In this document: piece after piece, positions 28,845 through 28,921 of the stretch
Position numbering within the stretch: the stretch's first letter is position 1
Layout of the letters: each line of letters opens with the position of its first letter
DNA from: a virus
Direction: 5' to 3' (one strand)
Length of the DNA: 31,905 nt
IMG/VR virus record: IMGVR_UViG_3300027908_000043
Coordinates: 1-31,905 of that record
The notes under the pieces: model-generated
What the model saw: only the letters and a program-made list of their open reading frames with translations
Database searches by the model: none
What the model was told of the DNA's origin: nothing
Made by a program: the position numbers and the translations under genes

Positions 28845-28921
28845 CGCAGGGTAGAGCAGCCCGGTAGCTCGTCAGGCTCATAACCTGAAGGTCGCGGGTT
28901 CAACTCCCGCCCCTGCAACCA
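28845..28921 (+). tRNA. Initiator tRNA-fMet (CAU), complete with CCA
   Basis: All 77 bases fold: acceptor CGCAGGG/CCCTGCA, D-stem GAGC/GCTC, anticodon stem TCAGG/CCTGA with loop CTCATAA (anticodon at 28879-28881), T-stem GCGGG/CCCGC with loop TTCAACT, then A-CCA. Three features identify a bacterial initiator: an unpaired C1xA72 at the top of the acceptor stem, A11-T24 in the D-stem, and consecutive G-C pairs at the bottom of the anticodon stem, here AGG/CCT instead of the classic GGG/CCC. The AGG/CCT form is, as I recall, known in rhizobial initiators. Its start touches the upstream stop (28842-28844) and its end is three bases before the next Shine-Dalgarno, so it should be released from the operon transcript by RNase processing. 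Confidence 0.96.

Follow-up and report, generated by a model that had tools for sequence, protein, structure and literature searches.

An initiator tRNA-fMet gene at an unusually clean insertion site in a probably temperate alphaproteobacterial virus

The stretch of DNA analysed here (the window) is the whole 31,905-base IMG/VR virus fragment IMGVR_UViG_3300027908_000043. It contains a 77 nt initiator tRNA-fMet gene with anticodon CAU at positions 28845–28921 of the (+) strand. ARAGORN, one of the checks proposed in the earlier note on this DNA, calls tRNA-Met(cat) at exactly this place, and Rfam RF00005 matches positions 28845–28918 with 64 bits (E=7e-12; gathering score 29). No second tRNA is present in the record. 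Direct reading of the gene shows a C1xA72 mismatch, A11:U24, the CAU anticodon, A73 and an encoded CCA, and the complete 77-base tRNA with initiator hallmarks that the earlier note described is thus confirmed. The anticodon stem has two of the three G:C pairs (G30:C40 and G31:C39), and position 29:41 is A29:U41. This pair was left unmentioned in the earlier note and is also found in alphaproteobacterial initiators; a query carrying A29:U41 is 100% identical to copies on Azospirillum plasmids and 98.7% identical to Rhizobium/Agrobacterium copies.

The tRNA was compared with 119 distinct CAT-anticodon tRNAs taken from all fetched loci. It shares 55–73 of 77 positions with initiator-type CAT tRNAs (its own copy apart) vs 39–52 of 77 with the other CAT tRNAs, most of which begin with G1. 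By its sequence the window tRNA is an initiator, and the same identities rule out elongator Met and Ile2. Comparison with host initiator genes gives 72/77 identities to Paracoccus and 71/77 to Azospirillum. Both have the same anticodon arm, including A29:U41, as well as C1xA72, A11:U24 and the encoded CCA. The phage copy differs from these genes in having A4:U69, G51:C63 and C59, and in being enclosed by two phage genes, without any host flank. The nearest host-type copies come from plasmid records. None of 84,980 prokaryote genomes contained the 77-mer in identical form. A search for the donor with a looser pattern (acceptor GCAGGG plus A9) matched one Puniceicoccaceae genome only, which is an unlikely host, and this candidate was rejected.

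Upstream of the tRNA is a CDS of 185 aa with an Ig-like C-terminal part (28287–28844, + strand). It matches PHROG 12736, a virion structural protein family (E=1.1e-12), and is a conserved neighbour in relatives. Its stop codon TGA (28842–28844) abuts nucleotide 1 of the tRNA. On the other side, the Shine-Dalgarno-like GGAGG of the downstream gene (28925–28929, + strand, read directly) begins three bases past the CCA. The downstream gene itself (28935–29864, + strand) encodes a proline/glycine-rich protein of 309 aa, which has no family match but whose start, MAVTDLTD, is conserved in relatives. It is followed by a small conserved CDS of 66 aa (29869–30069, + strand), which served as a query for finding syntenic relatives. 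Elsewhere in the window, positions 3986–7292 hold two adjacent tail-fibre-like open reading frames, both ending in similar SDR(R/S)LKEN stretches that resemble intramolecular chaperone domains; one of the two also has a collagen-like GPxGxx repeat.

About 100 related loci were found in searches that used the portal, the 66-aa protein and the N-terminal part of the 309-aa protein as queries. The closest cultured phage, judged by portal (39.6%) and terminase (53.8%), is Ochrobactrum phage vB_OspP_OH, which has an alphaproteobacterial host. In two further contigs (L089/L100 and L099) the tRNA occupies the same position between these flanking genes, whereas at least eight relatives possess both genes but no tRNA between them (L085/L114, L093/L111, L113, L115, L116, L117, L087/L112 and L092/L118). 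In each of the three carrier records this tRNA is the sole tRNA. An ARAGORN call of tRNA-Arg in the relative L092 was taken as false, there being no Rfam support for it in that record. Position 1:72 has no Watson-Crick pair in any carrier: it is C1xA72 in the window and A1xA72 in L089 and L099. The tRNA gene is truly phage-borne: it is flanked by phage genes to the left and right, and three contigs share its site. This excludes a host flank or an attP remnant, and it agrees with the earlier note, which had taken the gene to be full length and not a remnant. Most close relatives do without the tRNA, and therefore it is not essential for the group.

The filled and empty junctions can be compared base by base. 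In the window the upstream gene ends in gtggcg TGA, which is followed by the tRNA, then AACGGAGGCGATA and the ATGG of the downstream gene. The filled junction of L099 likewise reads gtggcg TGA, the 77-nt tRNA ending in CCA, ACGGAGGCGAACA and ATGG, and in the empty junction of L113 gtggcg TGA is followed directly by ACGGAGGCGAAC and ATGG. The GGAGG is kept in the filled and in several of the empty sites, and L089 has four additional bases (GAAT) ahead of its tRNA. By this comparison, the insert in a filled site matches the mature tRNA almost to the base, with a stop codon on one side, a Shine-Dalgarno sequence on the other and no host flank. A bare tRNA may have been captured, or flanks may have been lost afterwards by trimming; both are compatible with the clean site. 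It should be pointed out that an RNase P cut at tRNA nucleotide 1 would end the upstream mRNA exactly at its UGA (window positions 28842–28845), leaving zero 3′ untranslated bases, and the same is the case in L099.

The exact position between stop codon and Shine-Dalgarno raises the question of whether the tRNA is an RNA processing element, i.e. a structure that mainly directs RNase P and RNase Z/E to cleave the transcript between two neighbouring cistrons, so that these are expressed separately. This is very unlikely, since any tRNA would serve such a purpose, yet all initiator-specific features are retained here, and the relatives express the same junction without a tRNA.

The differences between copies suggest that the gene is instead maintained as a tRNA. 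Six differences separate the window tRNA from the Azospirillum copy; four of them belong to the compensated pairs 4:69 and 51:63, and the remaining two fall at unpaired positions. From L099 the window tRNA differs at five places, namely position 1, a single base in each of the D and T loops, and both members of the compensated pair 50:64. In an alignment of nine phage and host-type sequences, all 180 of 180 pair cells are standard, and three pairs are changed on both sides. None of 500 shuffles of this alignment reached its covariation score or its percentage paired, although related sequences may beat such shuffles without structure; slid controls also fell far below. The anticodon arm is invariant, being identical in the three carriers and the host-type copies, which are alphaproteobacterial. 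Folding energy was not counted as evidence: the unconstrained minimum free energy fold of the bare window tRNA is not the cloverleaf, which lies 0.8 kcal/mol higher, and the wider stretch around the tRNA folds no better than shuffles. The compensated stem differences from host copies imply a selected, functional tRNA, and the divergence pattern, as far as aligned sequences can tell, is that of a tRNA kept working.

The pattern also bears on whether the gene is a passenger, i.e. a tRNA gene picked up from a host by chance that persists without function. The presence of the tRNA is patchy. Trees of three neighbouring genes, all with weak resolution, give no support for a single origin, since none of them groups the carriers together; the tRNA may have been gained repeatedly, lost or exchanged. 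A useless copy should decay, however, whereas the three copies have no broken pair and their paired changes are compensated, and a mere passenger is thus most improbable.

The reading that we favour, and which seems reasonably probable from the sequence features, is that the gene encodes a functional extra initiator tRNA that tops up the supply of fMet-tRNA. The tRNA directly follows a stop codon and precedes the Shine-Dalgarno of the next gene, and a scan with the sigma-70 consensus, the only one used, found no sigma-70-like promoter near it; it is therefore most likely cotranscribed within a (+) strand phage operon. Host RNase P would cleave directly behind the UGA, and the 3′ side would be trimmed by host nucleases as far as the encoded CCA. 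From the known determinants, the product should be charged by host MetRS and formylated by the host formyltransferase, the 1:72 mismatch and A11:U24 having been kept, and IF2 would deliver it to the P site. More fMet-tRNA during expression of the operon could then help initiation and re-initiation on the tightly packed phage cistrons. An extra initiator would suit such cistrons because re-initiation in Escherichia coli requires the formylation and P-site properties of the initiator tRNA (PMC2268962). The earlier note proposed that the gene may serve late expression or favour GTG starts; as an ordinary CAU, however, the anticodon gives no reason to expect a preference for GTG beyond that of the host's own initiator.

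One feature of the acceptor stem deserves mention. Position 4:69 is A:U in the window tRNA vs G:C in the host, and A:U instead of G:C at this position might lower formylation. A4:U69 recurs in initiators of unrelated phages, many of them alphaproteobacterial (window positions 28845–28921, L002, L214, L265, L272, L274 and L101–L104), in a sample that is biased by the query and in which an excess is unproven.

The earlier note also suggested that the phage tRNA replaces an initiator degraded by host defence. In this form of counter-defence, the host initiator would be destroyed or blocked by a toxin, by VapC-type cleavage or AtaT-type acetylation of Met-tRNA-fMet. Initiator tRNA is a known target of VapC-type cleavage, and evasion of such nucleases by phage tRNAs is possible (PMC10264068); sequence differences from host copies do occur in the acceptor stem and T stem of the phage gene. 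The published signature of evasion, however, consists of anticodon-loop mutations relative to the host tRNA (PMC10264068), and these are absent in the three carriers when compared with host-type (alphaproteobacterial) tRNAs. With an identical anticodon arm, an anticodon nuclease should cut the phage tRNA too. In addition, phages are reported generally to avoid tRNA-fMet where tRNA-fMet is the target of the toxin (PMC10264068). Replacement of a degraded initiator is accordingly a suggestion that lacks its expected signature, and counter-defence as a whole appears quite unlikely. The phage tRNA may still evade a defence directed at the acceptor.

The most interesting rival to an extra initiator is a possible tRNA-dependent lysogeny, in which phage integration into a host tRNA-fMet gene leaves that gene unrestored and the phage copy compensates for the loss, the mechanism described in PMC10865867. 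Many relatives have a tyrosine integrase, and the phage group is probably temperate. In six relatives the integrase lies approximately 6.5–7.5 kb past a conserved gene that corresponds to window positions 30066–30344. The same succession of genes is seen in two carrier contigs (G026 and G018), which break off at the last stretch ahead of the integrase; the window ends earlier still. An integrase would thus be expected approximately 8 kb from the tRNA. The published system resembles the present one in that its phages, mycobacteriophage Fionnbharth and others, are temperate and only some relatives carry the tRNA. It differs in that the table of published phage tRNAs in PMC10865867 has no initiator isotype, and in that the carriers described here are known without an integrase/attP region, integrases being seen in relatives only. 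Around the integrases of four relatives no tRNA-like fragments were found, and matches between integrase flanks and the initiator gene are just 9–11 bases long, which by eye is at chance level. Moreover, a sole initiator is also carried by other phages. Taken with these points, tRNA-dependent lysogeny is unlikely.

Initiator-type tRNAs are found in other phages as well. Similar DNA is present in 271 of 50,697 phage records at E<=1e-3, 131 of them from mycobacteriophages, and all 21 of the 21 records fetched have an initiator-type tRNA; the sample was gathered with the window tRNA as query and gives no unbiased frequency. A11:U24 is absent in three of the 21 (Erythrobacter phages ZS04 and R6L and Mesorhizobium phage vB_MseS-P1), and several have U1:A72. 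The statement in the earlier note that a phage initiator is rare is therefore too strong, the more so as one such gene, in Caulobacter phage CcrSC (MH588547), is already annotated as tRNA-fMet. Phage-borne initiators are a recurring minority. In the literature searched, no paper that treats phage-encoded initiator tRNAs as a class was found.

CcrSC is likewise an alphaproteobacterial phage, but it is a jumbo phage with other tRNAs, and its initiator has a U1:A72 pair and C73. Closer in kind are the Komagataeibacter phages phiKX1 and phiKX2 (LC644975 and LC644976), whose tRNAs are equal to each other and 91% identical to that of the window. These phages are also temperate, have alphaproteobacterial hosts and carry the initiator as sole tRNA. 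Their gene neighbourhood is unrelated, and the phiKX2 tRNA adjoins the integrase gene whereas approximately 8 kb are expected here. In phiKX2 (L003 6962–8040) the integrase gene is followed, after about 230 bases, by the full-length initiator tRNA, an arrangement that fits either an attP carrying a whole tRNA or a tRNA-dependent lysogeny system.

Several of these genes are unannotated: those of Erythrobacter phages ZS04 (L265 1501–1577) and R6L (L278 1501–1577), both after terminase, PaMx74 of Pseudomonas (L270 1503–1578), Elanor of Xanthomonas (L276 1495–1570) and Phage CBW1004C-Prop1 (L274 3004–3079). In Mesorhizobium phage vB_MseS-P1 (L272 3000–3074) an initiator-like tRNA overlaps, within the immunity region, a CDS annotated as a transcriptional repressor. 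One phage contig, 136,875 bases long (L098 1250–8849), has an array of 35–37 tRNA genes, which includes an initiator with an extra T-stem base.

The initiator is the sole tRNA in the records of phiKX1, phiKX2, ZS04, R6L, PaMx74 and vB_MseS-P1. This can be looked at, tentatively and with considerable doubt, as a recurrent strategy, whereby unrelated phages have independently gained an initiator and no other tRNA, which would raise initiation and re-initiation rather than codon supply. In the virus described here, the gene would have arrived as a mature tRNA without flanks, placed behind a stop codon and ahead of a Shine-Dalgarno, conceivably via an RNA intermediate.

The tRNA-fMet gene of this probably temperate alphaproteobacterial virus is a further example of the known phage initiators, and its insertion site is unusually clean. 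A natural comparison is offered by this junction, with its three filled versions and at least eight empty ones. Phages that carry only an initiator are clean test cases for the role of phage tRNAs, because explanations based on codon usage are inapplicable and the anticodon-nuclease signature is missing.
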